Below are positions 2,908-19,327 of a stretch of 21,315 nt of DNA, piece by piece (the first letter of the stretch is position 1; the number at the start of each line of letters is the position of its first letter). Position numbers and translations under genes: made by a program. Under the pieces are notes generated by a model. That model did not search any database. It saw nothing but the letters and a program-made list of their open reading frames with translations, and was not told where the DNA came from. The stretch is from NCBI GenBank assembly GCA_900556055.1, contig USNJ01000010.1, positions 1 to 21,315 on the forward strand, read 5' to 3'. Source of the stretch: an uncultured Ruminococcus sp. (GTDB taxonomy: Bacteria; Bacillota; Clostridia; Oscillospirales; Ruminococcaceae).

Positions 2908-2946
2908 CATTCTGCAATGAATTTATAAATGAGATCAGGGAAAAAT

Positions 2947-4317
2947 ATGGATCAGACCAAACAAAAAAACACTATTGACATGGCAAACGGACCTCTTGCA
3001 AAAAACATACTTTTTTTCAGCATTCCTCTTATGCTCACACAGATACTTGAAGTGCTTTTCAACCTCAGTGATGTTGCGATAGCGGGAAAATTTGCAGATT
3101 ACATAGCTCTGGGCGCAGTCGGTTCGACAACTCTCCTCGTCACGCTTTATACGGGATTTCTCATCGGCATGGGCGCAGGCGTAAACGTCCGCGTAGCTCA
3201 CAGACTCGGCGCAGGCGACAGCGAAGGAACATCCAAAACTATACACTCCGCATTTACAGTCTGTCTTATAACGGGCATCATTATATTTATAGTATGCTTT
3301 CTCCTTGCAAAGCCGCTGCTCACCGTAATGAAAACCAAGGACGAGCTTATAAACGACGCTGTTTTGTATCTCAGGATATACTCAGTCGGAATGCCCGCTA
3401 TGGCAGTCTACAACTTCGGCAGCGGTGTGCTGAGTGCAGGCGGAGATACAAAAACGCCGCTTCTTTATCTCACGATATCGGGAATACTGAACGTTATCCT
3501 GAACCTGTTTTTCGTTATCGTCTGCGGAATGGCAGCTGACGGAGTTGCGCTCGCAAGCGTTATCGCACAATACCTTTCGGCAGGGCTGATAGTCCGTCAC
3601 CTGATAATAAAAGGCGGCGCATGCAAGCTTTATTTTTCACGGAAATATTTTGATAAGCATGCCTGCACGGACGTTCTCCTTCTCGGCATACCCTCGGGAA
3701 TACAGAACGCAATATTCGCAATAGCAAACCTTTTCGTGCAGACAGGCGTAAATCACTTCGACGCTATAATGGTATCGGGAAATTCAGCCGCCGCCAACGC
3801 AGACGCCGTTATATATAATGTAATGGCAGCGTTCCATACAGCCTGCGCAAGCTTTGTCGGACGATGCAGAGGCGCAGGAAGAAACGACCGCATACTGAAA
3901 AGCTATTTTATAAGTATGTCCTATTCCTTTGCCGCAGGCGCATTTTTCGGCGGACTTCTCCTTATCTTCGGCAGACAGTTCCTTTCGCTTTTCACGAACG
4001 AACCTGCCGTCGTTGATGCGGGAATGCAGCGTATCTCAATAATGGGCTGGTCATACGCAGTCAGCGCATTCATGGACTGCACGATAGCTGCATCACGCGG
4101 CATAGGCAAAAGCATAGCCCCAACGATCATAGTTATCATGGGCTCCTGCGTTTTCAGGGTAATATGGGTGTATACTATATTCGCATACTTCGGAACTATC
4201 CGCTCTCTTTACCTGCTCTATGTATTCTCATGGGCAATAACCGCAGCAGCTGAGATAGCCTACTTTATGGCAGCTTATCGCAAGATAGCAAAAGCATCTC
4301 CGCAAACAGCTCAGTAA
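2947..4317 (+). CDS. MATE family multidrug/Na+ (or H+) antiporter
   Basis: A 456-residue polytopic membrane protein of the usual MATE length with about 12 hydrophobic segments. The first part carries the typical motif of this family, ending in 'LFNLSDVAIAGKF', and the repeat 'GSGVLSAGGDTKTP' found at the end of the N-terminal half. The second half begins near 'LLLGIPSGIQNA' and ends with the typical 'ASRGIGKSIAPTII' segment. MATE proteins exchange cations for organic cations or metabolites across the inner membrane; the substrate cannot be told from sequence. The ATG at 2947 has AGGG 6 bases upstream. An in-frame ATG at 2929 lacks a ribosome binding site and is less likely. Single-gene unit with its own promoter and a strong terminator. 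Confidence 0.93.
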   Translation: MDQTKQKNTIDMANGPLAKNILFFSIPLMLTQILEVLFNLSDVAIAGKFADYIALGAVGSTTLLVTLYTGFLIGMGAGVNVRVAHRLGAGDSEGTSKTIHSAFTVCLITGIIIFIVCFLLAKPLLTVMKTKDELINDAVLYLRIYSVGMPAMAVYNFGSGVLSAGGDTKTPLLYLTISGILNVILNLFFVIVCGMAADGVALASVIAQYLSAGLIVRHLIIKGGACKLYFSRKYFDKHACTDVLLLGIPSGIQNAIFAIANLFVQTGVNHFDAIMVSGNSAAANADAVIYNVMAAFHTACASFVGRCRGAGRNDRILKSYFISMSYSFAAGAFFGGLLLIFGRQFLSLFTNEPAVVDAGMQRISIMGWSYAVSAFMDCTIAASRGIGKSIAPTIIVIMGSCVFRVIWVYTIFAYFGTIRSLYLLYVFSWAITAAAEIAYFMAAYRKIAKASPQTAQ

Positions 4318-4330
4318 TACACAATAAATA

Positions 4331-4363
4331 AAACCCGTCTGAAAAGATCTCTCAGACGGGTTT
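4331..4363. terminator. Bidirectional terminator between convergent units
   Basis: A 12-bp perfect stem (4331-4342 with 4352-4363) closes on a 9-base loop. A T-run follows on the plus strand (4361-4364), and on the minus strand the stem leads into TTTTATTTATT. It serves the MATE gene from one side and the five-gene SWIM-to-VWA operon from the other. Confidence 0.9.
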
Positions 4364-4427
4364 TGTCATTAATAGAATATTCCTGCAAATTCGCCCCAGC
4401 CGTCAAAGCAAATTTATAAGGCTTTTT

Positions 4428-5591
4428 TCAGCCATGTTTTGCCGAAACAAACCCGCTCAGCGAACGCTTTTTCAGCGCAGCCTCCAGCATCTCGGGCAGC
4501 TTTTCGGGCGGGCAGGCAAAGCACGGGATATCAAATGCAGCGATCTTTTCCGCTATCGACTCATCAAACATAGGCTTTCCGCTGTCAGATATCGCAAGCA
4601 GCACTATCACATTCACACCCGATTCTTTCAGCTCGCCCAGCCTGCGGATAAGACCGTTTCTGTTCCCGCCCTCATAAAGATCGGTCACGAGAAACATAGT
4701 GGTTTTCTCAGGCTCTGTTATCAGCTCCATGCAGTAAGCGACCGATTTTTCTATGTCCGTACCGCCGCCAAGCTGTATGCCGTAAAGAAGATCAACGGGA
4801 TCAGAACACATCTCCGTCAGATCGGTAACAGCTGTGTCAAACGCCACAACATGAGTTTTCACGGAGCTTATGCTCGCAAGTATACAGCCCATCACAGACG
4901 AATATATTGCAGATTCGCCCATCGAGCCGCTCTGGTCAATATCCAGAATAACCGTCCTCGATGCCGAACGGGAAACTCTCTCAAAGAAATAGAACTTCTC
5001 GGGCAGTATCGTTTTCAGCCCTGGATCATAATTTTTGAGATTTCTCCTGATCGTAAGCTTGTAATCCAGTGCCGATGCTGACGGTATAGGCGAATGTTCC
5101 CGCCTGTTCATCGCCGCCGTGACCGACCGCTTTATATCATCTGACAGCCTGCGGTTTATATCCTCAACTATCTTAGCAATATACTGCCTTGCATTATCCT
5201 TCGACTTTGCAGGTATCTGATCTTTAAGCATAAGCAGCAGCGATGCTGTCGAAATGTCAGGCTCCAGACTATTCAGCATCTCAGGCTCAAAAAGCAGCTG
5301 CTTCAGACCCTTTCGCTCTATCGCATCATTCTGTATCACTTTTATCTCCGCCGATGCAAACAGCGAACGCAGATCGCCCAGCCATTTTGTAAGCTTCGGC
5401 GATGAGGCACCTTTGCCAGCCGTACCCGTCATATTTGCGCCGCTGTCATTTCCGTAGATCTGCGAAAGTGCCGAATCCATAAGCAGCTCATCTGCCGACA
5501 TTTCCGCCGCACCGCCGAGAGAATTTATCATCTCATCGCACCCGCTGCCGAGGATAAGCCGCCAGCGTTTCAGAATTTCCTTATTTTCCAT
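4428..5591 (-). CDS. VWA (MIDAS) domain protein, YehP/CoxE-like, last gene of the MoxR operon
   Basis: A 387-residue protein with an N-terminal helical region and a C-terminal von Willebrand factor A domain from about residue 210. The metal-ion-dependent adhesion site is complete: DxSxS at Asp219-Ser221-Ser223, Thr278 in GGGTD, and Asp304 in LVTDLYEGG. VWA proteins paired with MoxR ATPases act as adaptors or recognition subunits that bring target proteins to the AAA+ ring (for example RavA-ViaA, NorQ-NorD, CbbQ-CbbO). The ATG directly follows the TAA of the DUF5682 gene with no spacing, and its GGAG site lies inside that gene, so translation is probably coupled. E. coli YehP is the closest named analogue by context. 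The target protein is unknown. Confidence 0.88.
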   Translation of the reverse strand: MENKEILKRWRLILGSGCDEMINSLGGAAEMSADELLMDSALSQIYGNDSGANMTGTAGKGASSPKLTKWLGDLRSLFASAEIKVIQNDAIERKGLKQLLFEPEMLNSLEPDISTASLLLMLKDQIPAKSKDNARQYIAKIVEDINRRLSDDIKRSVTAAMNRREHSPIPSASALDYKLTIRRNLKNYDPGLKTILPEKFYFFERVSRSASRTVILDIDQSGSMGESAIYSSVMGCILASISSVKTHVVAFDTAVTDLTEMCSDPVDLLYGIQLGGGTDIEKSVAYCMELITEPEKTTMFLVTDLYEGGNRNGLIRRLGELKESGVNVIVLLAISDSGKPMFDESIAEKIAAFDIPCFACPPEKLPEMLEAALKKRSLSGFVSAKHG

Positions 5592-7829
5592 TTAAATATC
5601 TCCGAAATCAAAATCGTCAAGCTCGTCCAGCGACTGCTTTTCCTCGGCAGTGATGTTTGCCGTTATATATTCCGCAGCCGCTTCCTTTGATATGCCGAGC
5701 ACCTCACCGATATTTTCTGCAATGTCGGATCTTTCCGCTGCCGAAAATTCGGAGAATGTCCGCCGCAGACATACAAATACAGGCTTGAATTCCTCATCGT
5801 CAAGTGCCGCAGTAAAGTCCGCAAGCTTCTCCCATATTGATAATCTGCTTATCAGCGCACGCCTGTTTTTCTTGGAAAACCCCTCGAACCACAGCGCACC
5901 GTCAGCCGCACACCCGGGCGATAATCTCCTGCTTATAAGCTCCGAAAGCTTCTCCGAGGATATCTCTCCCCTTTCCGACAGCACAGCACATGCATATCCA
6001 GACAGCAGCGGATTTGCAAAATTATCATCGGAAATGCCCGTAAGTACGTCAATAAGCCTTTCCTTATCAAGAAGATCATGAGCAAGGCAAGCATCATTTA
6101 CCATCGAAACCGCACCGATAAGTTCCTCCGCCGCAGCCCTGTCGCAGACAGCCGCAGACGGCAGACTAAGACAGAATCTCAGAAAAAGCTTCTCCATCAG
6201 CGGACCGATATTTTCAGTTGAAAGCCGCCTTATGCTTCCGAATCTTACAATAGATGAAAGCGTTCCGACAGTCGAGCCGATGTCCGCCGCTGACGAACAA
6301 TCCGCTGCCTGCCTCTGCACCGCATAAGCAGCAGTTTTTACACATTCACTCAGCCCGCATTCAAACGATGCATTAAGTATCTCCGCCGACTTCCTGACCG
6401 ACTGCGCCGCCGCAAGCTTCATATTCAGCTCATTTTCCGCCGCCTGCATGACCGTATCGCCCTTGAGCGACGCTTCAACTATCTCTATCTCAGCCTCGGG
6501 AGTCCATTGCAGCTGCCACTCCTCAGCCCACGTCGCATTGTCCTGAACACGCTGCAGCTTCTCGCAGAATCTCACTCCGAGTGCCCTCAGCCTGTGCAGG
6601 AAAAACGAACGGTTCAGATCAAGAAACGCCGATTTTTCGGACTTAACACGGATATTTTCACGCAGATCGAGCGAAATTTTCTCAGCCGATGCCTTGCGGT
6701 ATTTTTCCAGCTTCAGCTCCTTCAGCTGACGCACAAAATCCTCCTGAACCGACGTGCAGACCGTACCTTCCGGCAGCGAGCCTATCTTCACACCTATCTC
6801 AGTGTCAGCGCAGGCAAGCGATATCTCGCCGAAGCTTCCGTGTCCCAGACAGGTGACGGCAGCGTCCCTCAGGTCAGCTAGGCACGGCATTTTTCCGCCC
6901 CTCATGGCCGCAAGCGTTTCCGCAAGCCGCATCGCCTCAATGACCTCCGCCGTTGAACAGCAGTATCCGTTTTCACGCTGATATGCAGCTATTTTCGAGA
7001 GATATTCAGCCGCAGAACTGCCGATATTTCCCGCAATTCGGTTATTCCAGAGTATCTCAAAATACGCAGGTGCCTTGCTTCCCGCACCATATCCCGAGCG
7101 TGATGACAGCCTGAAATATGAATACGGCATGAGCGTTGCCTTGGCTTTCACCGTTGGCAGCCGATCGGTAAGCACCCTGTCATCATCGGAAAACGGGATA
7201 TTTTTTATTCCCGAGGTGTGAAACGCACCCGTTATTACAGCGATCTTCTCTGTCGGCAATTTTTCCTCCCACTCGCTTATCACACGCCGCATATAAGCCT
7301 CACGCAGCTTGTTGTGCTCGTCATTTTCCGATAAGCTGCGCAGATTTTTTCCGTAATCCTCAGCCGCCGCAATGAAATCCTCATAGCTTCGGCACTGCTC
7401 AAAAGTGTATTCCCAGAATGAATCGTTATCGGTTCCCGATGCATCTTCAAGCTGTTCATATACTGACTTTTTATGCTCAGGCTTTTCTTCACTTTTATCA
7501 TTCTTTTCATCATTTACAGCAAGAACGCAGTCCGACGGGAGATCGCAGAATCTTACCTCTCTGCCATTTTTCACAGCCCATCTCATAGCTGAATATTCGG
7601 GAGAAAATTCAGCAAACGGCCATAAAACCGTTCTGACAGGTGTTTCTGCGGTATATGCAAGTATAGCAGCGGGAAGATGCGACTCAGCCGAGCAAAGCGG
7701 CTTTATAAGCTCATTCAGATCGGCAGGGCCTTCAATAAGCACAACCTCGGGATCGCTTCTGTCAAGGAATTCGGTGACATAATATGCACACGCAGGCGAC
7801 AGATGCCGAACTCCGTAATACTCCGCCAT
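5592..7829 (-). CDS. DUF5682 family protein, YehM-like
   Basis: A 745-residue protein of the DUF5682 family, recognised by GVRHLSP (residues 6-12), VVLIEGP (29-35), WPFAEFSPEYSAMRWA (70-85) and RFCDLP (93-98). Two GxxH motifs, GVRH at 6-9 and GAFH at 201-204, plus Glu33 and LREAYM near 175-180, resemble the pattern of the TraB/PrgY/TIKI/ChaN group of predicted metal-dependent hydrolases. That link is an inference from motifs. A charged low-complexity insert lies at about 107-135. The region after about residue 250 is mostly helical and has no recognised motif. Its ATG shares one base with the stop of the MoxR gene (TAATG), and its own stop abuts the VWA start. No signal peptide or membrane helix is seen, so it should be cytoplasmic. 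Confidence 0.85.
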   Translation of the reverse strand: MAEYYGVRHLSPACAYYVTEFLDRSDPEVVLIEGPADLNELIKPLCSAESHLPAAILAYTAETPVRTVLWPFAEFSPEYSAMRWAVKNGREVRFCDLPSDCVLAVNDEKNDKSEEKPEHKKSVYEQLEDASGTDNDSFWEYTFEQCRSYEDFIAAAEDYGKNLRSLSENDEHNKLREAYMRRVISEWEEKLPTEKIAVITGAFHTSGIKNIPFSDDDRVLTDRLPTVKAKATLMPYSYFRLSSRSGYGAGSKAPAYFEILWNNRIAGNIGSSAAEYLSKIAAYQRENGYCCSTAEVIEAMRLAETLAAMRGGKMPCLADLRDAAVTCLGHGSFGEISLACADTEIGVKIGSLPEGTVCTSVQEDFVRQLKELKLEKYRKASAEKISLDLRENIRVKSEKSAFLDLNRSFFLHRLRALGVRFCEKLQRVQDNATWAEEWQLQWTPEAEIEIVEASLKGDTVMQAAENELNMKLAAAQSVRKSAEILNASFECGLSECVKTAAYAVQRQAADCSSAADIGSTVGTLSSIVRFGSIRRLSTENIGPLMEKLFLRFCLSLPSAAVCDRAAAEELIGAVSMVNDACLAHDLLDKERLIDVLTGISDDNFANPLLSGYACAVLSERGEISSEKLSELISRRLSPGCAADGALWFEGFSKKNRRALISRLSIWEKLADFTAALDDEEFKPVFVCLRRTFSEFSAAERSDIAENIGEVLGISKEAAAEYITANITAEEKQSLDELDDFDFGDI

Positions 7830-8908
7830 TATGAATTTCTCTCCTTACACTCCGCATAAAGCGATGCCAGACCCTTCCGCTTTCTCATGACATTTTCAAG
7901 ATATTCCGTCCATACAGCCTTGTCCTTTGTGTCGTCCTTAACGACCGCACCCTGAAGTGCCGACGCAAGATCGGCATCGGAAACAACACCGTTTCCGAAG
8001 CTTCCCGCAAGTGCCATGCTGTTGACGAGCAGAGATATAGCCTCAGCGGAAGAAAGCACTCCCGTTGTCTGCTTCAGTTTGACCTGACCGTCAAGAGTCT
8101 GACCGTTTCTAAGCTCCCTGAACACCGTCACGACCCGCTCAACTGCCGTCCTGTCAGGCAGCTTTGCCGTCAGACCGAAGCTGTCCGCAAGCTGTGCAAC
8201 TCTTGTGTTTACGATGTTTATCTCGGTTTCCATGTCCGCAGGCGCAGGCAGCACAACAATGTTGAAACGCCTTTTCAGAGCCGATGACATCTCGTTTACA
8301 CCCTTGTCACGTGTATTCGCCGTCGCAATGACGGAAAATCCCTTTTTAGCCGCAATTTCTTTGGATAACTCAGGCACGGATATCCTTTTTTCGGATAATA
8401 TCGAAATAAGTGCGTCCTGGACCTCGCTTGCGCATCTCGAAATTTCCTCGATACGTGCAATAGTTCCCGTTTCCATAGCCGTATAGACAGGACTTTTCAC
8501 CAACGCTTCATGCGAGGGACCTTTTGCAAGCAGCAGTGCATAATTCCATGAATAGCGTATCTGCTCCTCGGTCGTTCCCGCAGTTCCCTGAATAACTCTC
8601 GATGAATTGCCGTTTATAGCCGCCGTGAGATGCTCCGAAAGCCACGATTTTGCCGTTCCCGGCTCACCGATAAGCAGCAGCGCACGGTCGGTAACAAGCG
8701 TCGCTATGCATATCTCTACAATGCGCCTGTCACCCATGTATTTGGGCGTTATCACCGTTCCGCCCGATTTTCCGCCCATTATATATGTAAGCACCGACTT
8801 AGGCGACATTTTCCAGCCCACAGGCACGGGATCCTTCTCATTTGCGATAAGAGCGTCCAGCTCATTTTTATAAAGCTCCTCAGCAGGGAGGCGAAGTATA
8901 TCAGACAT
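7829..8908 (-). CDS. MoxR-type AAA+ ATPase, YehL-like
   Basis: A 359-residue AAA+ ATPase of the MoxR/AAA_5 type. It has Walker A GEPGTAKS at 81-88, a Walker B region 'IARIEEISR' at 150-158 in which Glu154-Glu155 take the place of the usual Asp-Glu, sensor 1 'IATANTRD' with Asn198, and 'SSALKRRFN' at 208-216 carrying the probable arginine finger. MoxR ATPases form rings that remodel or activate protein targets together with VWA partners, and here that partner is encoded two genes downstream. The ribosome binding site AAGGAG lies 6 bases before the ATG. The gene overlaps DUF5682 by one base and starts 19 bases after the HEAT-like gene. The Glu-Glu Walker B seems, from memory, to be normal for this YehL branch rather than a defect. 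Confidence 0.92.
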   Translation of the reverse strand: MSDILRLPAEELYKNELDALIANEKDPVPVGWKMSPKSVLTYIMGGKSGGTVITPKYMGDRRIVEICIATLVTDRALLLIGEPGTAKSWLSEHLTAAINGNSSRVIQGTAGTTEEQIRYSWNYALLLAKGPSHEALVKSPVYTAMETGTIARIEEISRCASEVQDALISILSEKRISVPELSKEIAAKKGFSVIATANTRDKGVNEMSSALKRRFNIVVLPAPADMETEINIVNTRVAQLADSFGLTAKLPDRTAVERVVTVFRELRNGQTLDGQVKLKQTTGVLSSAEAISLLVNSMALAGSFGNGVVSDADLASALQGAVVKDDTKDKAVWTEYLENVMRKRKGLASLYAECKERNS

Positions 8909-8927
8909 TTTCTTCTCCTTATTTTTA

Positions 8928-10811
8928 TTATTTTATTTTTGCGATCATGTCGTCTATGCGTGCATTCAGAATATTCCTGTTGCCCTCCGAACCGTTATAA
9001 AGGAATGATGCGACAGCAAGCGATCTCCGCAGATGTTCAAGCTCACTCAGCTTCTGCTCACGGCTGAGCGGGAAATCATCAAGAAAATCCAGATGTACTA
9101 TCCTTCCGTTCCTGTACTCATACATCGCAAAATTTTCGGTTATTCCGAGATAATCCTCGGGCTTTCCGTCCCTGTAATATTTGCGGATAAGATCTATCGC
9201 CCTGAAACAGGACGCATTTCTTTTGTCAGGCTTCACTTTGAGCGACATCAGCGCCAGCTTTACAGCCGATGCCCTTATCCTCTCATAATCTTCGGGCGAA
9301 CAGTCTGACAGCATATGCGAAAAAGTCATGCAGGAATATTCATTGATCGAAAATTCTCTGATGTTGAATGCACTCTTCACAGCATTCACAAATTTCGATG
9401 CAAGTCCGCTGCTTTCTATTACAGACGTATCGCCGACAAAATCAATAATGTTCTGCGGCATCTCGGAAAAGAGCGGCAGCCTTATCCTTACGTTTCCTTG
9501 TTCAAAACTCGGAACATACGAAATATAATACTTTTTCTCAGCATTGGAATATTCGATCTTATTCAGAATATGCATCATGGAATTCTTGTCCTCTTTTGTC
9601 TGAGGTGATATCTCACTGAACGCATTCTGCGGATCGTCAATTAATCTGAGGAAGAAATTCGCCGTGAAAAACATTTTCCCATCCGATCGATACAGCCTTG
9701 AAATTAGTGCCTTGTATTCGTCATTCGGCTTATTTGCGAGATTTGCGATAAGCACATTATTTATCTGCGTTTCGAGATAATGGCTGTTTTCAGCCTGCCG
9801 TATATTTTGCGCAAGGCTTATAAAACAGTCGTCCGCACCCGATTTGTTCTGCATGAGCGAAATAACATCGTCAATTCCCGGCTTATCCTTTTCATATGTG
9901 CCGCCGAACGCCTTTCCGATCATCTCACGGGCAAAACCGACCGCCGCAGCCGACGGAGAAACGGCAAAATACTGCCAATATGTCTGCTTGAATTTCGCCT
10001 TCATTTTCGTCAGTATCTCATCGGCTTCGGGGATACCCAGCTTTGCGATCTCAAGCATCGCCGCATTCTTGATCTTTCCCTTTTCCGTGTTGTAAATGTC
10101 AATCAGCTCCTGCCCGTTGCGCACATCACGTCCGAGTGCCTCTATCGCCTTCAGCCTTACTCCCTGCGGCGCATTTTCATTATGTGCAAGCGTAAGATAC
10201 CAGTCGTTTTCATCATATCCGGCAATATTTGCAACATATCTTACCTGATTTCCGCTTGCCTTTTCCGATGACATACCGACCGCATTTTTCAGCGGGATAA
10301 CGATCGATTTCCCGTAAGCCGAGCATATCATCTCCGCAAATTCTGCGAAGTAATAGCTGTTCACATCCGATTTTTTAATAAATGCAGCCAATATCCTGGG
10401 ATCGCCGATAAGCTGCTTTTCCTCACTGCTCAGCATTTCAAGCGTCTGACCCGCCTTTTCTATCTTATCCGCAAGCGCATGCACCGCAGAATACGGCGCA
10501 TTTTCCTTATTCGGGACATCTGCCGAAAACACGCTTTCCGATGTCTCAGAATTATCGGCATATCCGCCCTGAGCGACAGCCAGCGCATCAGCAAGAGCGA
10601 TGCAGTCCGCAAGAAGCAAAGCCGTGTTATCCTCGGAAAATAAGCGTCCGCACATATTATAAAGCTTTCCGAAAGCCTTGTTCGCCTCGGCAAGCGGCGC
10701 AAAATCATCGACCGCCCTTTTCAGCCTGAAATCCTCATTTATAGCCGAACAGCCCGCCGCAGCACAGCTGTACAGCCTTGTCCTAAGCTCATAAAACGGC
10801 ATAATATTCAT
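8928..10811 (-). CDS. Helical-repeat (HEAT-like) protein of the MoxR/SWIM operon
   Basis: A 627-residue protein with no named family that I can assign. It is predominantly alpha-helical. Residues of the middle part, around 'RLKAIEALGRDVRNG' and 'IKNAAMLEIAKLGIPEADE', read as HEAT-type repeats, a scaffold for protein binding. No membrane helix, signal peptide or catalytic motif is apparent. AAGGAG lies 8 bases before the ATG at 10811, just after the stop of the SWIM gene (12-base gap). Proteins in this slot differ between genomes: actinobacterial operons carry a DUF5691 protein and E. coli has the DUF4132/HEAT protein YehI nearby, so it may be a diverged equivalent. The inferred role is a scaffold linking the SWIM protein with the ATPase/VWA pair. 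Confidence 0.7.
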   Translation of the reverse strand: MNIMPFYELRTRLYSCAAAGCSAINEDFRLKRAVDDFAPLAEANKAFGKLYNMCGRLFSEDNTALLLADCIALADALAVAQGGYADNSETSESVFSADVPNKENAPYSAVHALADKIEKAGQTLEMLSSEEKQLIGDPRILAAFIKKSDVNSYYFAEFAEMICSAYGKSIVIPLKNAVGMSSEKASGNQVRYVANIAGYDENDWYLTLAHNENAPQGVRLKAIEALGRDVRNGQELIDIYNTEKGKIKNAAMLEIAKLGIPEADEILTKMKAKFKQTYWQYFAVSPSAAAVGFAREMIGKAFGGTYEKDKPGIDDVISLMQNKSGADDCFISLAQNIRQAENSHYLETQINNVLIANLANKPNDEYKALISRLYRSDGKMFFTANFFLRLIDDPQNAFSEISPQTKEDKNSMMHILNKIEYSNAEKKYYISYVPSFEQGNVRIRLPLFSEMPQNIIDFVGDTSVIESSGLASKFVNAVKSAFNIREFSINEYSCMTFSHMLSDCSPEDYERIRASAVKLALMSLKVKPDKRNASCFRAIDLIRKYYRDGKPEDYLGITENFAMYEYRNGRIVHLDFLDDFPLSREQKLSELEHLRRSLAVASFLYNGSEGNRNILNARIDDMIAKIK

Positions 10812-10823
10812 ATTCTCATCTCC

Positions 10824-12257
10824 TTAACAAAGCCTTGTTATGCCGTTTTCATTCACGATAGAAAGCGGACACATATAAAATTTCCGTTCATCGGGGACAT
10901 AGTAAAGCTCACCCAGCAGCGCACCGTTTTTCAGCATTCGGCAGTCCGTAACAGCCAGAACGCCGCAGGTATCAGGATAATTTTCGCCCGACCTCAGCGC
11001 AATAGTTTCATCTTGGCATTTCAGCACAGCATGACCGTCGGAATTGGCAAATTTTATCTCGTCAAACCTGAGAAGAACTGCCGCAGACGGCTCGGAAAGA
11101 GTGTTTTTTAGCTCATTTTTCGCCTTTTTGACGGCATCGGAAATGCTGTTCTCCGCCTTTGAAAGGATATTTGCATACACCGCCCCGTCAGCATCGGTCA
11201 TTACGGCGGATTCCCACCTTATGCGCCTGTTCATTCCGCCCGGATATCTGTAAAGCTCTGCGATCTTATGCACACCGAACACGGAATCCTCCGCTTTTAT
11301 GTACTTCGCAGCCTTCAGCGGACGAATGGTTTCCGTCCTCGATATCTCGCCCGAATCAAGGTCGATCCAGTAAGCAGTGTCAATATCCGCCTTGTGCATA
11401 TCGTCATGGATAACATTGAACGAAAGCTGTATGATCTCGGCATTTTCCTTGTAAAGACCTATTTCTTTGAGCTGCGAAAGCTTCCAGACATTGCCCATCG
11501 CCTCATACAAAATGCTGTCCTCGGGCAGGACTTCGCCGCTTTCAAGCTTCGCATTTATATAGTCGCGGCTCTTTTTTATGACGGACGCAAGCCTTACACA
11601 CAAAGACGTTATCCTCTCTATCTCCCTGTCATCGGGGGACTGCGGCAGCTTTTCCGCCGCCGATACTATTTCATTCATGATAGCCTGAGGCTCAGGAAGA
11701 TAGTAGTCGCCCAGCTGCTTTGCAAGCTCCCTGTACTGCGATGCGGAAGCGCTGCTGACAGATGACGCTCCCCTTTCAAGAATGTCTTTGACAAAATTTT
11801 CTGCAAGTTCAAGACCGTCAGCTTGCTTTTTCAGCTTCTTTTCAGCTGCTGCTTTATTCTGCTTGGGCGGCTTCTTCTCTGCCGTTCCGTCCGCTGCCCT
11901 TTCGGCACGCTTTGCAGCCTTCCGGCGCTTTGCTGTTATGTCCTCGGGAATTTCCGATATCTCAAAATTCTTCCCCGCCAACCATTCAAACATTATCGCA
12001 AGACTGTGCTTGCACGGAAACTGTCTGCTCGGACAGGAGCATCTGAACACGGGTGCATCTCCCGAAAAGTCAGCAGATGTTGAGTAAGGATTCTTTCCGC
12101 TGCCCCTGCAATCGCCCCAGATAAGCGTTTCGTCCGCACTTTTCCGCAGATTCGAGAAATCCCCCGCCGACGATATTTTCTTTCCGTTCGATACCGCCGC
12201 AGGATTAGGTGCAAGTGAGCGGATAAGATCTTCCGTAATGATTTTTGCCGATGCCAT
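10824..12257 (-). CDS. SWIM zinc-finger protein, YehQ-like, first gene of the operon
   Basis: A 477-residue protein with an N-terminal SWIM zinc finger, CxC-x6-CxH (Cys73, Cys75, Cys82, His84), within 'FRCSCPSRQFPCKHSLA'. SWIM fingers bind DNA or proteins. The opening segment 'LIRSLAPNPAAVSNGKKI' is typical of stand-alone bacterial SWIM proteins found beside MoxR-VWA genes. Residues about 105-145 are a Lys/Ala-rich linker that could contact nucleic acid, and the rest is mixed helix and strand with no known domain. The ATG at 12257 is chosen because GGGG lies 5 bases upstream; an in-frame ATG at 12275 has no ribosome binding site. A strong promoter lies at 12296-12324. As first gene it may set target recognition for the system (inference). 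Confidence 0.87.
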   Translation of the reverse strand: MASAKIITEDLIRSLAPNPAAVSNGKKISSAGDFSNLRKSADETLIWGDCRGSGKNPYSTSADFSGDAPVFRCSCPSRQFPCKHSLAIMFEWLAGKNFEISEIPEDITAKRRKAAKRAERAADGTAEKKPPKQNKAAAEKKLKKQADGLELAENFVKDILERGASSVSSASASQYRELAKQLGDYYLPEPQAIMNEIVSAAEKLPQSPDDREIERITSLCVRLASVIKKSRDYINAKLESGEVLPEDSILYEAMGNVWKLSQLKEIGLYKENAEIIQLSFNVIHDDMHKADIDTAYWIDLDSGEISRTETIRPLKAAKYIKAEDSVFGVHKIAELYRYPGGMNRRIRWESAVMTDADGAVYANILSKAENSISDAVKKAKNELKNTLSEPSAAVLLRFDEIKFANSDGHAVLKCQDETIALRSGENYPDTCGVLAVTDCRMLKNGALLGELYYVPDERKFYMCPLSIVNENGITRLC

Positions 12258-12295
12258 TTTATCCCCTGCTTTCATATTAAAGATACAATATATTA

Positions 12296-12324
12296 ATTAT
12301 ATAACTTTTCCGTAAAAAAATCAA
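12296..12324 (-). promoter_or_regulatory. Sigma-A promoter for the SWIM-HEAT-MoxR-DUF5682-VWA operon
   Basis: On the minus strand TTGATT (plus 12319-12324), a 17-base spacer and a perfect TATAAT (plus 12296-12301). The predicted transcript start near 12289 leaves about 32 bases before the ATG at 12257. No strong internal promoter was noticed among the five closely spaced genes, so one transcript of about 8 kb is expected. Confidence 0.8.
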
Positions 12325-12605: not shown

Positions 12606-12611
12606 TAGATA

Positions 12612-12709
12612 TGCACCCCAAAATGAAAGATAAAACCTCTAAAGTTGCAAAAAACAATCAAGCATGGAACGGGGCAAAAGCCCGTCAGTATATTAGGGAG
12701 AGTGAGTAT
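12612..12709 (+). promoter_or_regulatory. Structured 5' leader of the glutamate synthase operon
   Basis: The leader of about 98 bases holds a GC-rich hairpin at 12669-12685 (GGGC-AAAA-GCCC with a bulged G and two more pairs). CTCTAA at 12637-12642 can pair with TTAGGG at 12693-12698, which covers part of the ribosome binding site (GGGAG, 12696-12700). CCCC near 12616-12619 could instead pair with the GGGG of the hairpin. These competing pairings suggest possible control of translation, but no known riboswitch or ANTAR two-hairpin target was recognised. Confidence 0.35.
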
Positions 12710-13816
12710 ATGTTAGAAAAAGAAGGTCAGGTAAGGATTCCGTCAGGCTGTGCGATCTCAGGATTTATCAGCAGAGACGGCAACAGGATCAGCGGCGAGG
12801 ACGCAGTAAAGTCCATTGCCTATATGCATGACCGTTCCAACGGACTCGGAGGCGGATTCGCAGGATACGGAATCTATCCCGAGTACAAGGATCTGTATGC
12901 ATTCCACGTTTTTTATGACACAAATGCCGCAAGAGAGCAGACAGAGCGTTTTCTTGACAGGCATTTCGATGTCGTAAACCTCAGCAGGATCGCAACAAGA
13001 AAGCACCCGAACATCACCAACGAGCCGCTCATCTGGAGATACTTCGTTACTCCGCTCCCGACAAAGATGGCGTCCTCGCAGCTTCCCGAAAAGGAGTTCG
13101 TCGCTAAGTGCGTTATCAGGATCAACAATGATATCCCCGGCGCATACGTATTCTCCAGCGGCAAGAACATGGGCGTATTCAAGGCTGTCGGCTTCCCTGA
13201 GGATGTAGGAGAATTTTACCGCCTTGATGAATACGAGGGATACGCATGGACCGTCCACGGACGTTATCCCACAAACACACCCGGCTGGTGGGGCGGCGCT
13301 CATCCGTTCTCTCTTCTCGATTACAGCATCGTACATAACGGTGAGATCTCCTCCTACGACGCTAACCGCCGTTTCATTGAAATGTTCGGCTACAAATGTT
13401 CACTGCTGACCGATACAGAGGTCATCACCTATATCATAGACTTCCTCAACAGACGTCAGAACCTCTCTCTCGAAGATGTTGCAAGCATCATCGCTGCGCC
13501 CTTCTGGAGCGAGATCGACAAGATGGAGCCTAAGCAGGCAGAAAAGCTCAGATACCTCAGAAATGTATATTCAAGCCTCCTGATAACAGGACCTTTCTCC
13601 ATTATCCTCGGCTACAACGGCGGACTTATGGCACTCAATGACCGTCTGAAGCTCCGTTCGATGGTAGTTGCCGAAAAGGGCGATATGGTATACATTTCAA
13701 GTGAAGAGTGTGCGATCCGCGCTATCTGTCCCGATGTGGACAAGATATGGTCTCCCAGAGGCGGAGAGCCTGTTATTGCTAATCTCAGCGAGGAGGGCAA
13801 AAGAAAATGTCTGTAA
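12710..13816 (+). CDS. Glutamate synthase amidotransferase subunit (class II glutaminase domain)
   Basis: A 368-residue class II (Ntn-type) glutamine amidotransferase, equivalent to the N-terminal domain of GltB, that releases ammonia from glutamine for the synthase. The probable nucleophile is Cys14 in 'IPSGCAISGF', so a propeptide of 13 residues after the start would have to be cut to free the cysteine. Other family motifs are 'RSNGLGGGFAGYGIYP' (42-57), HGRYPTN (183-189), HNGEISS (209-215) and TDTEV (234-238). The ATG at 12710 is chosen because GGGAG lies upstream with 9 bases between, and because the longer frame would begin at the transcript start. The gene overlaps the next one by 10 bases, as expected for coupled subunits of one enzyme. 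Confidence 0.9.
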   Translation: MLEKEGQVRIPSGCAISGFISRDGNRISGEDAVKSIAYMHDRSNGLGGGFAGYGIYPEYKDLYAFHVFYDTNAAREQTERFLDRHFDVVNLSRIATRKHPNITNEPLIWRYFVTPLPTKMASSQLPEKEFVAKCVIRINNDIPGAYVFSSGKNMGVFKAVGFPEDVGEFYRLDEYEGYAWTVHGRYPTNTPGWWGGAHPFSLLDYSIVHNGEISSYDANRRFIEMFGYKCSLLTDTEVITYIIDFLNRRQNLSLEDVASIIAAPFWSEIDKMEPKQAEKLRYLRNVYSSLLITGPFSIILGYNGGLMALNDRLKLRSMVVAEKGDMVYISSEECAIRAICPDVDKIWSPRGGEPVIANLSEEGKRKCL

Positions 13817-15312
13817 ATTATTTTCCCGCAGAATTTGAAGTTCTGAGAAATACCGATAAATGTATAAGATGCAGAGCCTGCGAACGCCAGTGTGCCAATG
13901 AGGTCCACTATTATGATGCAGACTTTGATAAAATGCTTACCCATGACGATCAGTGCGTTGACTGCCAGAGATGCGTCACCATCTGTCCCACGGGCGCTAT
14001 AAAGATCCACAAAAATCCGAATGAGTTCAGACAGAACTACAACTACACTCAGCAGATCATGACCGAAAATTACCGTCAGGCAGGAAGCGGCGCAGTTCTC
14101 CTTTCTTCAATGGGAAATCCGCTCCCCTATCCCGTTTACTGGGATAAGATCCTCATCAATGCATCTCAGGTAACAAACCCGTCTATCGACCCGCTCAGAG
14201 AACCTATGGAAACAAAGGTATTCCTCGGCAAGAAGCCCGATAAGATGGAATTCAACGAGGACGGTTCGCTGAAAACAGATCTTCCCCCTCACCTTGAGCT
14301 TTCCGTTCCTATCATGTTCTCGGCTATGTCCTACGGTTCGATCTCCAAGAATGCTCATGAATCCCTCGCAAGAGCCGCAACCGAGCTTGGCACATATTAT
14401 AATACAGGTGAAGGCGGTCTGCATAAGGATTTCTATCAGTACGGACCCAATACAATAGTTCAGGTAGCTTCGGGACGTTTCGGCGTTTTCAAGGATTATC
14501 TTGAAACAGGCGCAGCTATCGAGATCAAAATGGGACAGGGTGCAAAGCCCGGTATCGGCGGACATCTTCCCGGCGCAAAGATCCGTGAGGACGTTTCAAA
14601 GACAAGAATGATCCCTATGGGAACAGACGCTATCTCCCCTGCTCCTCACCATGATATCTATTCGATCGAGGATCTCCGTCAGCTGATCTACTCGCTGAAG
14701 GAAGCAACAGAATACAAAAAACCCGTTATCGTAAAGATCGCAGCAGTTCACAACGTTGCCGCTATCGCTTCGGGTATCGCACGTTCAGGTGCTGATATCA
14801 TCGCTATTGATGGTTTCAGAGGCGGTACCGGTGCAGCTCCGACAAGAATAAGAGATAACGTAGGTATCCCGATAGAGCTTGCTCTTGCAAGCGTTGACCA
14901 GCGTCTCCGCGACGAGGGTATCAGAAACAATGTTTCCGTTGTAGTTGCAGGTTCGATACGTTCCGCATCTGACGCAGTAAAGGCTATCGCACTCGGCGCA
15001 GACGCTATCTACATCGCAACCCCCGCACTCCTTGCAATGGGCTGCCACCTCTGCAGAAGCTGCCACGGCGGCAAGTGCAACTGGGGTATCGCAACACAGC
15101 GTCCCGACCTTGTAAAAAGACTTAATCCCGACGTTGCATATAAGAGACTTGTTAATCTTATCCATGCATGGGATCACGAGATCAAGGAAATGATGGGCGG
15201 TATGGGTATCAACTCCATCGAAGCCCTCAGAGGAAACAGACTTATGCTCAGAGGAATCGGTCTGACCGACAGAGAGCTTAAGATCCTCGGAATCGCACAT
15301 GCAGGCGAATAA
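13807..15312 (+). CDS. Glutamate synthase, FMN/iron-sulfur synthase subunit with ferredoxin domain
   Basis: A 501-residue subunit equivalent to the central and FMN domains of GltB, where ammonia and 2-oxoglutarate become glutamate. The N-terminus carries two CxxCxxCxxxC 4Fe-4S motifs (Cys19-29 and Cys50-60). The FMN barrel includes SAMSYGSIS (172-180), 'GEGGLHKDFYQYG' (201-213), KMGQGAKPGIGGHLPG (241-256) and 'IDGFRGGTGAAPT' (334-346). 'GCHLCRSCHGGKC' (412-424) replaces the 3Fe-4S cysteine loop of GltB. This layout with its own ferredoxin domain is known for archaeal and clostridial dispersed glutamate synthases. AGGAGG lies 10 bases before the ATG. The gene is between the amidotransferase and the ferredoxin-like gene of the same operon. 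Confidence 0.93.
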   Translation: MSVNYFPAEFEVLRNTDKCIRCRACERQCANEVHYYDADFDKMLTHDDQCVDCQRCVTICPTGAIKIHKNPNEFRQNYNYTQQIMTENYRQAGSGAVLLSSMGNPLPYPVYWDKILINASQVTNPSIDPLREPMETKVFLGKKPDKMEFNEDGSLKTDLPPHLELSVPIMFSAMSYGSISKNAHESLARAATELGTYYNTGEGGLHKDFYQYGPNTIVQVASGRFGVFKDYLETGAAIEIKMGQGAKPGIGGHLPGAKIREDVSKTRMIPMGTDAISPAPHHDIYSIEDLRQLIYSLKEATEYKKPVIVKIAAVHNVAAIASGIARSGADIIAIDGFRGGTGAAPTRIRDNVGIPIELALASVDQRLRDEGIRNNVSVVVAGSIRSASDAVKAIALGADAIYIATPALLAMGCHLCRSCHGGKCNWGIATQRPDLVKRLNPDVAYKRLVNLIHAWDHEIKEMMGGMGINSIEALRGNRLMLRGIGLTDRELKILGIAHAGE

Positions 15313-15324
15313 TGCGGAGGGATA

Positions 15325-15780
15325 ATGAAAATGAAAAGAGTATATGTAAACGAGGACAGATGTCTCGGCTGCCATCTCTGCGAATTCTACTGCGCATATG
15401 CAAACAGCGATGCAGACGATATCGTAAAAGCATTCAAGCTTAATAAAGCAGCCACTCCAAGGATCCAGGTCGAAGAGGGCGGCGATGTTAATTTTGCCGT
15501 TTCCTGCCGTCACTGTAAGGATCCGCAGTGCGTGAACAACTGCATCACAGGTGCGCTTTCCGTTCATAACGGAGTTATCGAGATCGACGAAAGCAGGTGC
15601 GTCGGCTGCTACACATGCGTTCTTTCATGTCCTTACGGCTGTATCGTCATCGATGAAAAGAACGGCGGAAAAACAATCACCAAGTGCGAACTCTGCACAA
15701 GAAATTCACACGGAGAGCCGATGTGCGTGAAGAACTGCATCAACTCCGCAATAGTATTTGAGGAAAGGGGCGAGGACTGA
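15325..15780 (+). CDS. Four-cluster 4Fe-4S ferredoxin-like electron-transfer subunit
   Basis: A 151-residue polyferredoxin of the HycB/CooF/dicluster-partner type, with four cysteine groups: Cys13-16-19-23, Cys61-64-69-73, Cys92-95-98-102 (extra Cys106) and Cys121-124-134-138. It should pass electrons between the FAD oxidoreductase encoded next and the FMN/FeS synthase subunit encoded before it. GGAGG lies just upstream of the ATG at 15325. A second ATG at 15331 is also possible, because its spacing to the GGAGG is nearer the usual range. The stop shares one base with the next start (TGATG), which suggests coupled translation. No signal peptide, so cytoplasmic. Confidence 0.9.
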   Translation: MKMKRVYVNEDRCLGCHLCEFYCAYANSDADDIVKAFKLNKAATPRIQVEEGGDVNFAVSCRHCKDPQCVNNCITGALSVHNGVIEIDESRCVGCYTCVLSCPYGCIVIDEKNGGKTITKCELCTRNSHGEPMCVKNCINSAIVFEERGED

Positions 15781-17024
15781 TGAAATACGTTATTATCGGA
15801 AATGCCGCAGCAGGCATCGGAACCGTCGAGGGTATCAGAGAATACGATAAGGACGGCGAAATACTCATCATCTCCGACGAAAAGTACGATACATATTCCC
15901 GCCCGCTTATCTCCTACTGGCTGAAAGAAGCCGTTACCGAGGAAAATATGCGTTACAGAAACGCTGATTTCTACGAGAAAAACAACGTCAAAACGATGCT
16001 CGATACTAAGGTCATCGCTATTGATCCCGATAAAAAGGAAGTTGTTATTGAGGGCGGCGAAAATGTCCCCTATGACAAGCTGATGGTAGCGACAGGCTCA
16101 AAGCCGTTCGTTCCACCGATGCAGGGAATGGAAAAGATCGCAAAGAAGTTCTCCTTTATGAAGAAGGACGATGCAAAAGCAGTCAAGGAAGCTGTTTTTG
16201 ACGGCGCAAGAGTGCTTATCGTCGGCGCAGGACTCATCGGTCTAAAGGCAGCCGAGGCGCTTGAACATTACAATGCAAAGATGACCGTTGTCGATCTTGC
16301 AAACAGGATCCTCCCGTCTATCCTCGACGAGGCAGCATCCGAGATAATGCAGAAGCATATCGAAAGCAAGGGCGTAAGGTTCATTCTGAACACAAGCGTT
16401 TCCGAATTCAGCGAGAATTCCGCAAAGCTTTCAAACGGTGAAACGGTTGATTTCGATATGGTGATACTTGCTGTCGGCGTTCGTCCGAATGTTGAGCTTA
16501 TAAAGGAAGCGGGCGGAAATGTCGGAAGAGGAATCATCACCGACAACAGACAGCAGACCAGCCTGAAGGACATTTATGCCGCAGGCGACTGCACTGAAAG
16601 CTACGATATTTCCATTGAAGCAAACAGAATACTTGCTATCCTTCCGAATGCGCATAATCAGGGAGTTGTCGCAGGAAAGAACATGGCAGGCAAGGAAGCA
16701 TATTATCTCAATGCATTCCCGATGAATGCTATCGGATTCTTCGGACTGCATATCATCACAGCAGGCAGCTATGACGGCGAACCTGTCGTTGAAACCGATG
16801 GTACCAACTATAAGAAGCTTGTTGTCAAGGACAAGCAGCTCAAGGGCTTTATCCTCATGGGCAAATACATAAAGAGAGCGGGTATCTACACCTCGCTTAT
16901 CAGGGAACACATAACCGCAGATGAATGCGATTACGAGCTTATGCTCAAAGCTCCTCAGATGATGGCGTTTAACAGGGAAAGACGCAATGACAAGCTTGCA
17001 GGAGGTAAAGGCAATGAAAATTAA
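15780..17024 (+). CDS. FAD/NAD(P)-dependent oxidoreductase of the glutamate synthase operon
   Basis: A 414-residue pyridine-nucleotide-disulfide-type flavoprotein, similar in layout to rubredoxin reductase and NADH oxidase. It has an N-terminal FAD Rossmann motif 'IIGNAAAGIGT' (5-15), ATGSKP (104-109), a second dinucleotide fold 'VLIVGAGLIGLKAAEAL' (145-161) for NAD(P)H, and 'IYAAGDC' (265-271) binding FAD. The active-site Cys43 of CoA-disulfide reductases is absent (sequence there is YSRPLISY), in keeping with a simple electron-entry role. It likely takes electrons from NAD(P)H and hands them to the polyferredoxin and then the synthase, replacing classical GltD. This role is inferred from position. 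It overlaps the preceding stop by one base and the GXGXG gene by 11 bases. Confidence 0.9.
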   Translation: MKYVIIGNAAAGIGTVEGIREYDKDGEILIISDEKYDTYSRPLISYWLKEAVTEENMRYRNADFYEKNNVKTMLDTKVIAIDPDKKEVVIEGGENVPYDKLMVATGSKPFVPPMQGMEKIAKKFSFMKKDDAKAVKEAVFDGARVLIVGAGLIGLKAAEALEHYNAKMTVVDLANRILPSILDEAASEIMQKHIESKGVRFILNTSVSEFSENSAKLSNGETVDFDMVILAVGVRPNVELIKEAGGNVGRGIITDNRQQTSLKDIYAAGDCTESYDISIEANRILAILPNAHNQGVVAGKNMAGKEAYYLNAFPMNAIGFFGLHIITAGSYDGEPVVETDGTNYKKLVVKDKQLKGFILMGKYIKRAGIYTSLIREHITADECDYELMLKAPQMMAFNRERRNDKLAGGKGNEN

Positions 17025-17736
17025 TGCAGAGGGACTTCACTTCAAGGTCCTCAATGAAAAAGTCAGAACTTGCCCCGACAAGGATATCGAACTCGATAAT
17101 GTCCTCGGACACAGATATATCGGAGCAGGTCTCTGCGATAAAAATGTTAAGATATATGGCGTTCCCGGCAATGCGCTCGGCGCTTATCTCAACAACTCCC
17201 GCATAGAGGTCTTTGCAAACGCTCAGGACGCTACGGGAGATACGATGAACGCAGGCGAGATCATTATCCACGGCAACTGCGGAGATGCTCTCGGCTACGG
17301 AATGAGAAACGGCAAGATCTTCGTTAAGGGATATGCAGGCTATCGTGCCGGAATCCACATGAAGCAGTATCAGGAGCTGAAGCCGGTCATCGTTATCGGC
17401 GGCAAGGTCGGCGATTTTCTCGGCGAATATCAGGCGGGCGGACAGATCGTTGTCCTCGGCATCGGCGCAGAAAACGAGATCCCCGTAGGTTCATTCTGCG
17501 GAACAGGCATGCACGGCGGTGCTATCTATCTAAGGACTGAGCACTGCCCGACAGACCTTCCCGCTCAGGTAAGCGTTCACGATGCATCTGCCGAAGATAT
17601 CGAAGATATCAGAGCAGATGTCAGCGAGTTTGCAAAATGCTTCGGATATAACGCAGACGAGCTTCTCTCATCTCACTTCTTCAAGCTGACACCTAACACA
17701 GCTAACCCCTACCGCCAGCTTTACGTTAATAACTGA
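17014..17736 (+). CDS. Glutamate synthase GXGXG (beta-helix) subunit
   Basis: A 240-residue protein equivalent to the C-terminal GXGXG domain of GltB, a right-handed beta-helix with a structural role beside the FMN barrel. Repeats with regularly spaced glycines run over residues 52-150, including 'GNALGAYL', 'GNCGDALGYGM' and 'GGKVGDFLGEYQAGG'. The ATG at 17014 is chosen because AGGAGG lies 8 bases upstream; an in-frame ATG at 16987 has no such site. The gene starts within the last codons of the oxidoreductase gene, so all five operon genes are close or overlapping. It is followed 8 bases later by a terminator hairpin. Confidence 0.92.
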   Translation: MKINAEGLHFKVLNEKVRTCPDKDIELDNVLGHRYIGAGLCDKNVKIYGVPGNALGAYLNNSRIEVFANAQDATGDTMNAGEIIIHGNCGDALGYGMRNGKIFVKGYAGYRAGIHMKQYQELKPVIVIGGKVGDFLGEYQAGGQIVVLGIGAENEIPVGSFCGTGMHGGAIYLRTEHCPTDLPAQVSVHDASAEDIEDIRADVSEFAKCFGYNADELLSSHFFKLTPNTANPYRQLYVNN

Positions 17737-17875: not shown

Positions 17876-18442
17876 ATGCCAACTGCACTGCTTGTCACAA
17901 AAGCGTCGGAAGCAGCCGACAGCATAGCGCTCATTCTGAGAGAATGCGGTGCGGAGGACATTTCCGTTTCTGACGGAGAGCACGCAAGAGCCGCACTGAG
18001 CGACAGCGCATATGATCTCGTGATCGTCAATACCCCCCTTGAATCCGAATACGGTCTGGGACTTGCAGCCGAGATCTCAAGATCGCACAGCTGCGCCGTA
18101 ATGGTGCTTATAAAATCGGAAAACATTGAAGAAGCGTCAAAAAAGCTTGAAGGCAGGGATATATTCCTCGTCCCGAAAAATGTCGGCAAGGCAATGCTTG
18201 TCCAGTCGGCAAAATATGCGATAGCAATGCATAACGCACTGAAAAAGCAGACGGAAGCCGCTGATGCGCTCCGACAGAAGCTTGACGACATCAAGCTTAT
18301 CGACCGTGCAAAATGCGTGCTTATCGAATACCTCAGGATAAGCGAATCGCAGGCGCACAGACAGATACAGAAACAGGCGATGGATCAGCGGCTCTCACAG
18401 GTCGCTGTCGCAATGAATATCCTCAAAACCTACGAACAGTAA
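17876..18442 (+). CDS. ANTAR-domain RNA-binding regulator with degenerate receiver
   Basis: A 188-residue regulator. Residues 1-120 have a response-regulator-like fold, but the usual phosphate-accepting Asp is replaced by Asn52 ('DLVIVNTPLESEYG'), so phosphorylation is unlikely there. Lys101 near 'LVPKN' may correspond to the conserved receiver lysine. A coiled-coil-like segment leads into an ANTAR domain at about 128-184 ('DRAKCVLIEYLRISESQAH'). ANTAR domains bind paired RNA hairpins in leaders and prevent termination. In Clostridia they often sit next to nitrogen-assimilation genes; here the glutamate synthase operon is directly upstream. It probably shares a transcript with dapF (15-base gap). 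The actual target is not shown by the sequence. Confidence 0.9.
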   Translation: MPTALLVTKASEAADSIALILRECGAEDISVSDGEHARAALSDSAYDLVIVNTPLESEYGLGLAAEISRSHSCAVMVLIKSENIEEASKKLEGRDIFLVPKNVGKAMLVQSAKYAIAMHNALKKQTEAADALRQKLDDIKLIDRAKCVLIEYLRISESQAHRQIQKQAMDQRLSQVAVAMNILKTYEQ

Positions 18443-19309: not shown

Positions 19310-19327
19310 ACGAAAGGATCCGATAAA

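Follow-up and report, generated by a model that had tools for sequence, protein, structure and literature searches.

A five-gene SWIM–HEAT–MoxR–DUF5682–VWA operon of an uncultured Ruminococcus sp. as a candidate ATP-gated hydrolase system

We analysed a stretch of 21,315 nucleotides (nt) from an uncultured Ruminococcus sp. (GenBank assembly GCA_900556055.1, contig USNJ01000010.1), hereafter the window, in which five packed genes on the minus strand (4428–12275 in the list of open reading frames, ORFs) encode, in the order of reading, a SWIM zinc-finger protein, a HEAT-like protein, a MoxR-family AAA+ ATPase, a DUF5682 protein and a VWA protein (Table 1). The five genes form a real and widespread module, and the comparison of genomes shows that MoxR, VWA and DUF5682 are its evolutionarily tied core. 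The likeliest function, to which we assign a probability of about 0.5, is that of an intracellular hydrolase or protease that is gated by ATP and active only conditionally, where a MoxR–VWA motor would act on DUF5682.

The linkage of the five genes was followed in two surveys. The first started from MoxR and used the best 80 of at least 591 matches in a profile scan of genome contigs. DUF5682 was present in 73 of these loci, SWIM in 64, VWA in 64, HEAT in 51 and DUF5691 in 16, several loci ending at contig edges; the complete five-gene HEAT type was found in 45, which makes 47 together with the window and a Fusobacterium locus (L007). Of the seven loci with no DUF5682 nearby, L075, L077, L083 and L090 are lone MoxR genes from Bacteroidota-like records, L087 and L088 are loci of Candidatus Eremiobacterota bearing SWIM-DUF5691-MoxR, and the last is L059; the genomes of L075 and L087 have DUF5682 elsewhere. 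The second survey, less biased by the choice of operon, started from DUF5682 in five sets of genomes, each named after the group inferred from a centre genome; the counts include this centre genome, which was chosen for carrying the module. DUF5682 was found in 8 of the 147 genomes from the order of G001 (Oscillospiraceae), and in 3/149, 10/149, 10/200 and 7/198 genomes from the phyla of G004 (Cohnella), G007 (Actinophytocola), G010 (Variovorax) and G008 (Chitinophagaceae), respectively. The 40 regions around it contain MoxR in 37 cases, VWA in 36, and SWIM in 24 by profile and in four more by the CxC...CxH motif. Two of these four (L148, L157) pass the Pfam SWIM cut-off, L154 stays under it with 17.6 bits and L155 gives no match; one ORF each of L139 and L146 that has the motif without a Pfam match was left out of the counts. 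A third partner was recognised in 29 regions (DUF5691 in 15, DUF4132 in 10, HEAT in 4; cut-offs 30 bits for HEAT, 20 for SWIM and 40 for the others), and some of the other 11 stop at a contig edge. At these cut-offs, two kinds of third partner were never met together, either in the 80 MoxR-first loci or in the 40 DUF5682-first regions.

The pairing of MoxR with DUF5682 was followed in two of the genome sets with a limit for the MoxR alignment (E ≤ 1e-40) that had been fixed ahead of the search. In the Oscillospirales sample (147 genomes), the 8 genomes with DUF5682 are the same 8 that have this MoxR subfamily, and in the Bacteroidota sample (198 genomes) the same 7 genomes have both. The two genes lie on different contigs in G692 and G164 and about 30 kb apart in G833; in G164 the MoxR gene is interrupted by one in-frame stop, and in G210 it is truncated by the contig end. 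Since the co-occurrence is exact even when the genes are unlinked, MoxR and DUF5682 look like a tight functional pair. Taken together, the two surveys, the exact pairing and the occurrence in unrelated backgrounds bear out an earlier note on this DNA, made from the sequence alone, which had viewed the five genes as one unit to be sought across phyla. The closest named relatives are found in Oscillospiraceae metagenome assemblies.

The same note had predicted DUF5682 to be hydrolase-like, and this gained support from profile comparison and from some structural evidence. In the AlphaFold2 model of the protein (71 sequences, predicted local distance difference test score, pLDDT, 89.4), an N-terminal alpha/beta domain (about residues 1–245) precedes a stretch of about 490 residues that is mostly helical. 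The hallmark of the TIKI/TraB/ChaN superfamily is two GxxH motifs and a conserved glutamate. In DUF5682, the residues H9, E33, G201 and H204 are invariant in 114 of 114 relatives, and G6 is kept in 104 (P in 9 and S in 1), so that the first motif reads xxxH in 10 relatives. The order GxxH - E - R(E/N) - GxxH is the same in TraB and ChaN sequences, as judged by eye. The hhalign comparison of the N-terminal domain gave E 1.4e-5 with ChaN (4 sequences) and 1e-3 with TraB (12 sequences), vs. 4.1e-4 for TraB against ChaN, 0.25–0.39 for four operon families taken as controls and no match in 200 shuffles. With this domain, one fold match was also obtained, which may point to a shared fold. Pfam's own TraB/ChaN-type models gave no match to the DUF5682 protein at E ≤ 1, and a PDB sequence search gave nothing (best E 0.25); the known TIKI, ChaN and EreA structures were not among the Foldseek/VIA-align matches listed for the whole model, a search that mostly tests the helical part and does not speak against the likeness. 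Profile comparison, motif conservation and the one fold match support the N-terminal domain as a putative metal-dependent hydrolase resembling the TraB/ChaN/TIKI superfamily, which also includes erythromycin esterase. Unlike the members of this superfamily, the domain is joined to the long helical part and is tied to MoxR–VWA.

The MoxR protein shares 40% identity with E. coli YehL and 73% with the Fusobacterium MoxR, and its alignment with YehL and 11 other operon MoxR proteins (40–75% identity) shows the Walker A and ATAN motifs, the latter at residue 195. In PDB sequence searches, midasin was the best match for MoxR, and the VWA protein had none. In the first survey, 75 of 77 complete VWA-family ORFs have the DxSxS part of the metal-ion-dependent adhesion site (MIDAS). 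The joint encoding of the two proteins and the intact DxSxS agree with the suggestion of the earlier note that they work as a MoxR–VWA type of machine. Like NorQ–NorD and CbbQ–CbbO, the pair combines a MoxR ATPase with a VWA partner bearing a MIDAS; the difference is that three further families are tied to the MoxR–VWA of the window type, and none of the known NorQD/CbbQO clients was seen beside the operon within the window. According to the passages available from PMC9976466 and PMC13036017, the NorD VWA domain inserts a finger into the pore of NorQ, and its MIDAS is the proposed binding site for the target; an active target requires this MIDAS, and remodelling of the target requires ATP hydrolysis by NorQ.

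DUF5682 and VWA occur as a single open frame, with VWA at the C-terminus, in L004, L139 and L146 (Actinomycetota), L067 (Paenibacillus) and L133 and L135 (Oscillospirales set). NorD, CbbO and ViaA likewise have a C-terminal VWA domain. This likeness, together with the role of the NorD finger and MIDAS, is our reason for putting DUF5682 at the machine's working end. Those fusions that enter the DUF5682 tree fall at three or four separate places, the position of L133 and L135 being unsure owing to their long branches. The tree (FastTree, 115 rows of at least 550 matched residues, 96 of them typed by the third partner) omits L014, the same locus as L128, as well as L004 and cut rows under the length limit; L160, L165 and L013 are also long branches, and those of L154 and L155 meet. 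L139, L146 and L004 represent a divergent Actinomycetota form, and the L004 fusion is flanked by a large ‘DNA-binding protein’ gene and hypothetical genes where SWIM and the third partner would be expected. In L134, a gene for an APH_6_hur-like kinase (7457–8374, minus strand) lies between DUF5682 and VWA.

The distribution of HEAT, DUF5691 and DUF4132 over this tree requires two changes of type, which is the minimum, vs. a mean of 37.9 after shuffling; it follows that the core predates the choice of partner and that exchanges of the partner were rare. The distance matrices of the five proteins correlate with each other (Spearman 0.73–0.86, 47 complete five-ORF loci), as shared ancestry alone would also make them do. 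Phylum labels, available for 61 of the 115 rows, need 9 changes vs. the least possible 7. Fusobacterium L007 is placed within a Clostridia clade, and three Bacteroidota fall with a Clostridiales row inside a Bacillota clade; these placements suggest that the module has been transferred between phyla.

Proceeding from these data, we propose that the five genes may encode one machine. As in NorQD and CbbQO, MoxR would form an AAA+ ring of six subunits, which the VWA protein would couple to a target via the MIDAS site. ATP-driven remodelling through VWA would then act on DUF5682 by activation, metal loading or gating, such that hydrolysis by DUF5682 would be confined to the engaged complex. Recognition of the target or signal would probably fall to the SWIM protein and the helical-repeat subunit, which is of the HEAT type in the window and of the DUF5691 or DUF4132 type in the remaining clades. 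Two orders of action may be envisaged: either MoxR–VWA activates DUF5682, or DUF5682 works on cargo brought by the machine. A more far-reaching formulation, which we put forward tentatively and with clearly lower confidence, is that of an undescribed class of AAA+-gated enzymes, in which a MoxR–VWA motor would be evolutionarily tied to DUF5682 as a TIKI/TraB-like metal-dependent protease, and exchangeable, fast-evolving helical-repeat subunits with a SWIM sensor would define three clades; such a conditional protein-cleaving or protein-activating machine would be distinct from Clp, Lon, FtsH and the proteasome. Within the searches made, what is new is that DUF5682 is assigned as hydrolase-like, that it co-occurs exactly with MoxR in two samples, that the partners are of three types which exclude one another, and that DUF5682 and VWA can be fused. 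If the proposed reading is true, the regulated enzymes known in bacteria would gain a further kind, an ATP-gated hydrolase.

The earlier note had also pointed to the E. coli yehL-yehM-yehP-yehQ group as a match in content. Four families are indeed common to MG1655 and the window, namely MoxR, DUF5682 (YehM), VWA_CoxE (YehP) and SWIM (YehQ). However, the E. coli order is MoxR-DUF5682-VWA-SWIM, and DUF4132 (yehI; the yehH pseudogene region matches too) stands where the window has the HEAT solenoid; the DUF5682 proteins are only 22% identical, compared to 40% for MoxR. Judged by sequence, the window operon belongs to the YehL MoxR group as a variant of the HEAT type, E. coli yehLMPQ being a distant variant. 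YehL is one of seven MoxR subfamilies described in the available text of PMC3893208. In line with the view of the earlier note that the E. coli group has no assigned biochemical role, none was found for it, or for YehL itself, in our literature searches, where DUF5682 was not mentioned. Of two papers with at least two of yehL/M/P/Q, one, a genome announcement, contains all four; yehM is among the mutated genes of copper-evolved E. coli, and yehQ is among the genes tested from butanol-tolerant mutants; no function is shown there for either gene. Being tied to an enzyme-like domain with invariant putative catalytic residues, and to one of three exchangeable partners, YehL becomes open to direct tests in E. 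coli K-12, namely of the metal content and activity of YehM and their dependence on YehL and YehP. Fusobacterium and many Bacillota have the same five families in the same order as the window. The SWIM-DUF5691-MoxR-DUF5682-VWA operons of Rhizobium, Deinococcus and Methylosinus share its order and core, but their second gene encodes DUF5691 instead of HEAT, with one extra small gene in Deinococcus and a broken VWA gene in Methylosinus, which is split into three overlapping ORFs in a plasmid operon (L009:10208–11376).

Profile searches of all five proteins, as the earlier note had advised, yielded direct Pfam matches for four (SWIM, AAA_5, DUF5682 and VWA_CoxE); the HEAT-like protein had no significant direct match and was recognised through a relative (P0022, 40% identical), which matches HEAT_2. 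Its AlphaFold2 model (mean pLDDT 91.6 from 69 sequences) consists mainly of helices and has three short strands. A Foldseek search with this model gave a spliceosome chain as the best match (E 4.1e-4), followed by importins, adaptors and other solenoids, with low whole-model template modelling (TM) scores throughout. The HEAT-type solenoid is the fastest-evolving member of the operon: over the 47 five-gene loci, the mean pairwise identity is 29.0% for HEAT vs. 42.3% for SWIM, 50.9% for DUF5682, 60.7% for VWA and 73.8% for MoxR. Its gene is found in tandem between SWIM and MoxR in two copies in L028 and L042 and in three in L046. The idea that HEAT is a diverged DUF4132 was tried and found unsupported (profile comparison E 0.27); one DUF4132 protein (L154) matches the HEAT model at 24 bits, and both may be helical repeats. 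HEAT may be a diverged DUF5691, for which the profile comparison was weak (P 0.0012, probability 19.5, 101 columns). In the SWIM protein, the CxCx(n)CxH motif lies at about residues 78–95, and it is present in all 71 complete SWIM-family ORFs of the first survey.

Another possibility, which we regard as unlikely, is that MoxR–VWA matures or repairs an external metalloenzyme whose gene lies elsewhere, as NorQD does with nitric oxide reductase, the DUF5682, SWIM and solenoid proteins being accessory factors of targeting or processing. The NorQD precedent, as far as the passages of PMC9976466 and PMC13036017 go, the membership of the operon VWA in the VWA_CoxE family and the presence of two metal-rich systems in the window, a group B1 [FeFe] hydrogenase and a split glutamate synthase, are consistent with it. 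However, the next gene in the window is divergent upstream (12611 onward) and convergent downstream (2929–4317), and the module is found in unrelated backgrounds and phyla. The flanks of the module were inspected in the 20 DUF5682-first regions, out of 40, that lie on long contigs, where 116 flanking proteins of at most 900 amino acids (aa) were compared to 116 of 133 control proteins from the same genomes; to keep within the residue limit, 17 control rows were dropped, namely long ones and the final rows of L186 and L187. No metalloenzyme recurred among these flanking proteins: in the 25 of 108 Pfam families listed, the most frequent were response regulators (4/116) and B12-binding proteins (3/116). 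A link with molybdenum was considered and rejected, MoCoBD_1 and MoaC occurring in one flanking protein each.

The earlier note had left room for a conflict or stress system. In an anti-phage variant, SWIM and the solenoid would sense an invader, MoxR–VWA would set a threshold and DUF5682 would be the effector. The patchy presence of DUF5682 in the five genome sets, the tree placements suggesting transfer between phyla and the fast evolution and occasional multiplication of the solenoid genes speak for this scheme, and MoxR-vWA modules are central to the conflict systems described in the available text of PMC7159879. MoxR and vWA are what the operon has in common with the MoxR-vWA-beta-propeller ternary systems of that source, whose main text does not contain YehL. 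The five operon proteins gave no match to a beta-propeller or VMAP Pfam domain; the window MoxR scores 28.0 bits with bpMoxR against a cut-off of 27, in a match of just 55 residues and with AAA_5 far better, and fails the MadB ATPase equivalog of MADS defence (48.6 bits vs. a cut-off of 475). PADLOC models gave two faint matches with the operon, both to MoxR (Cas8e 16.6 bits, mad8 16.0 bits). Compared by family counts, 42 PADLOC families were matched in the flanks vs. 15 in the controls, but 20 of the 25 listed are PD-T4-6 kinase models with one protein each, and the most repeated family by proteins accounts for 3/116 in the flanks vs. 7/116 in the controls. In our reading, these counts give no clear defence-island signal; the flank Pfam families listed are varied and largely housekeeping or regulatory. 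No close relative was confirmed on viral contigs, where one unverified record matches: a 14-kb ‘phage’ from stool, which carries MoxR-DUF5682-VWA and may be chromosomal. PADLOC and the flanking genes give the conflict alternative no clear support, and we consider it improbable.

Least probable of all is a general stress or DNA-damage module, where SWIM and a solenoid or DUF4132 partner would act near nucleic acid. SWIM fingers are often linked with nucleic acids, which counts in its favour. In the available part of PMC8533742, DUF4132 and WGR (MolR-like) genes of D. radiodurans are strongly upregulated on depletion of DdrO, the DNA-damage repressor; this would bear on the module if those genes sit with MoxR or DUF5682. 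RtcB RNA-ligase genes (Pfam PF01139) lie near the module in three MoxR-first loci (L043:3499–4695, L047:5292–6518, L062:2098–3519), but in none of the 40 DUF5682-first regions, and RtcB was rejected as a functional neighbour. In L043, the RtcB gene stands between DUF5682 and VWA and is followed by an ankyrin-repeat gene.

The ORFs, the Pfam matches and the joint sequences confirm the earlier description of five packed genes: the gaps are 12 nt between SWIM and HEAT and 19 nt between HEAT and MoxR, MoxR and DUF5682 overlap by one base in TAATG, and the ATG of VWA immediately follows the TAA of DUF5682. Production of the last three products in a fixed ratio may be expected. That one promoter drives all five genes is plausible: the best minus-strand site in the scanned region lies 5′ of SWIM, but the scan yielded 20 promoter-like sites vs. 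10.7 (standard deviation 2.8) in shuffled sequences and weaker minus-strand sites occur within the operon at 10830, 8956 and 6052.

Table 1. Coordinates of the operon genes and associated elements in the window
Feature	Position	Strand	Basis
SWIM zinc-finger protein, 483 aa	10824..12275	-	Pfam SWIM 20.7 bits, cut-off 19.6
HEAT/ARM solenoid protein, 627 aa	8928..10811	-	relatives match HEAT_2; AlphaFold2 model
MoxR-family AAA+ ATPase related to E. coli YehL, 359 aa	7829..8908	-	AAA_5 E 3.7e-40
Walker A GEPGTAKS of MoxR	8645..8668	-	residues 81-88; coordinates derived from residue numbers
DUF5682 protein, 745 aa	5592..7829	-	Pfam DUF5682 E 1.6e-155
TraB/ChaN (TIKI superfamily)-like putative metal-dependent hydrolase domain of DUF5682	7095..7829	-	G6xxH9, E33, R176-E177-M180, G201xxH204
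VWA_CoxE-family protein, 387 aa	4428..5591	-	Pfam VWA_CoxE E 2.5e-43
DQSGS, DxSxS part of the VWA-domain MIDAS	4923..4937	-	residue 219; coordinates derived from residue numbers
Promoter-like site TTGATT-17-TATAAT, upstream of the SWIM gene	12296..12324	-	consensus scan, 10/12, top minus-strand score in scanned region
Terminator-like hairpin, 16 pairs then T-rich tail	4330..4364	-	about 60 bases 3′ of the VWA gene

Beyond the operon, the plus strand of the window carries the split glutamate synthase (12611–17736), with separate genes for the glutamine amidotransferase, Glu_synthase, ferredoxin-like, NAD-linked reductase and GXGXG parts. It is followed by a gene for an ANTAR-domain response regulator (17876–18442), behind which the genes of diaminopimelate epimerase and LL-diaminopimelate aminotransferase adjoin each other (18458–20533). 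On the other side, the monomeric group B1 [FeFe] hydrogenase is encoded on the minus strand (239–1747; TIGR04105, 625 bits), with the gene of a zinc-ribbon protein upstream of it on the same strand (1832–2665).

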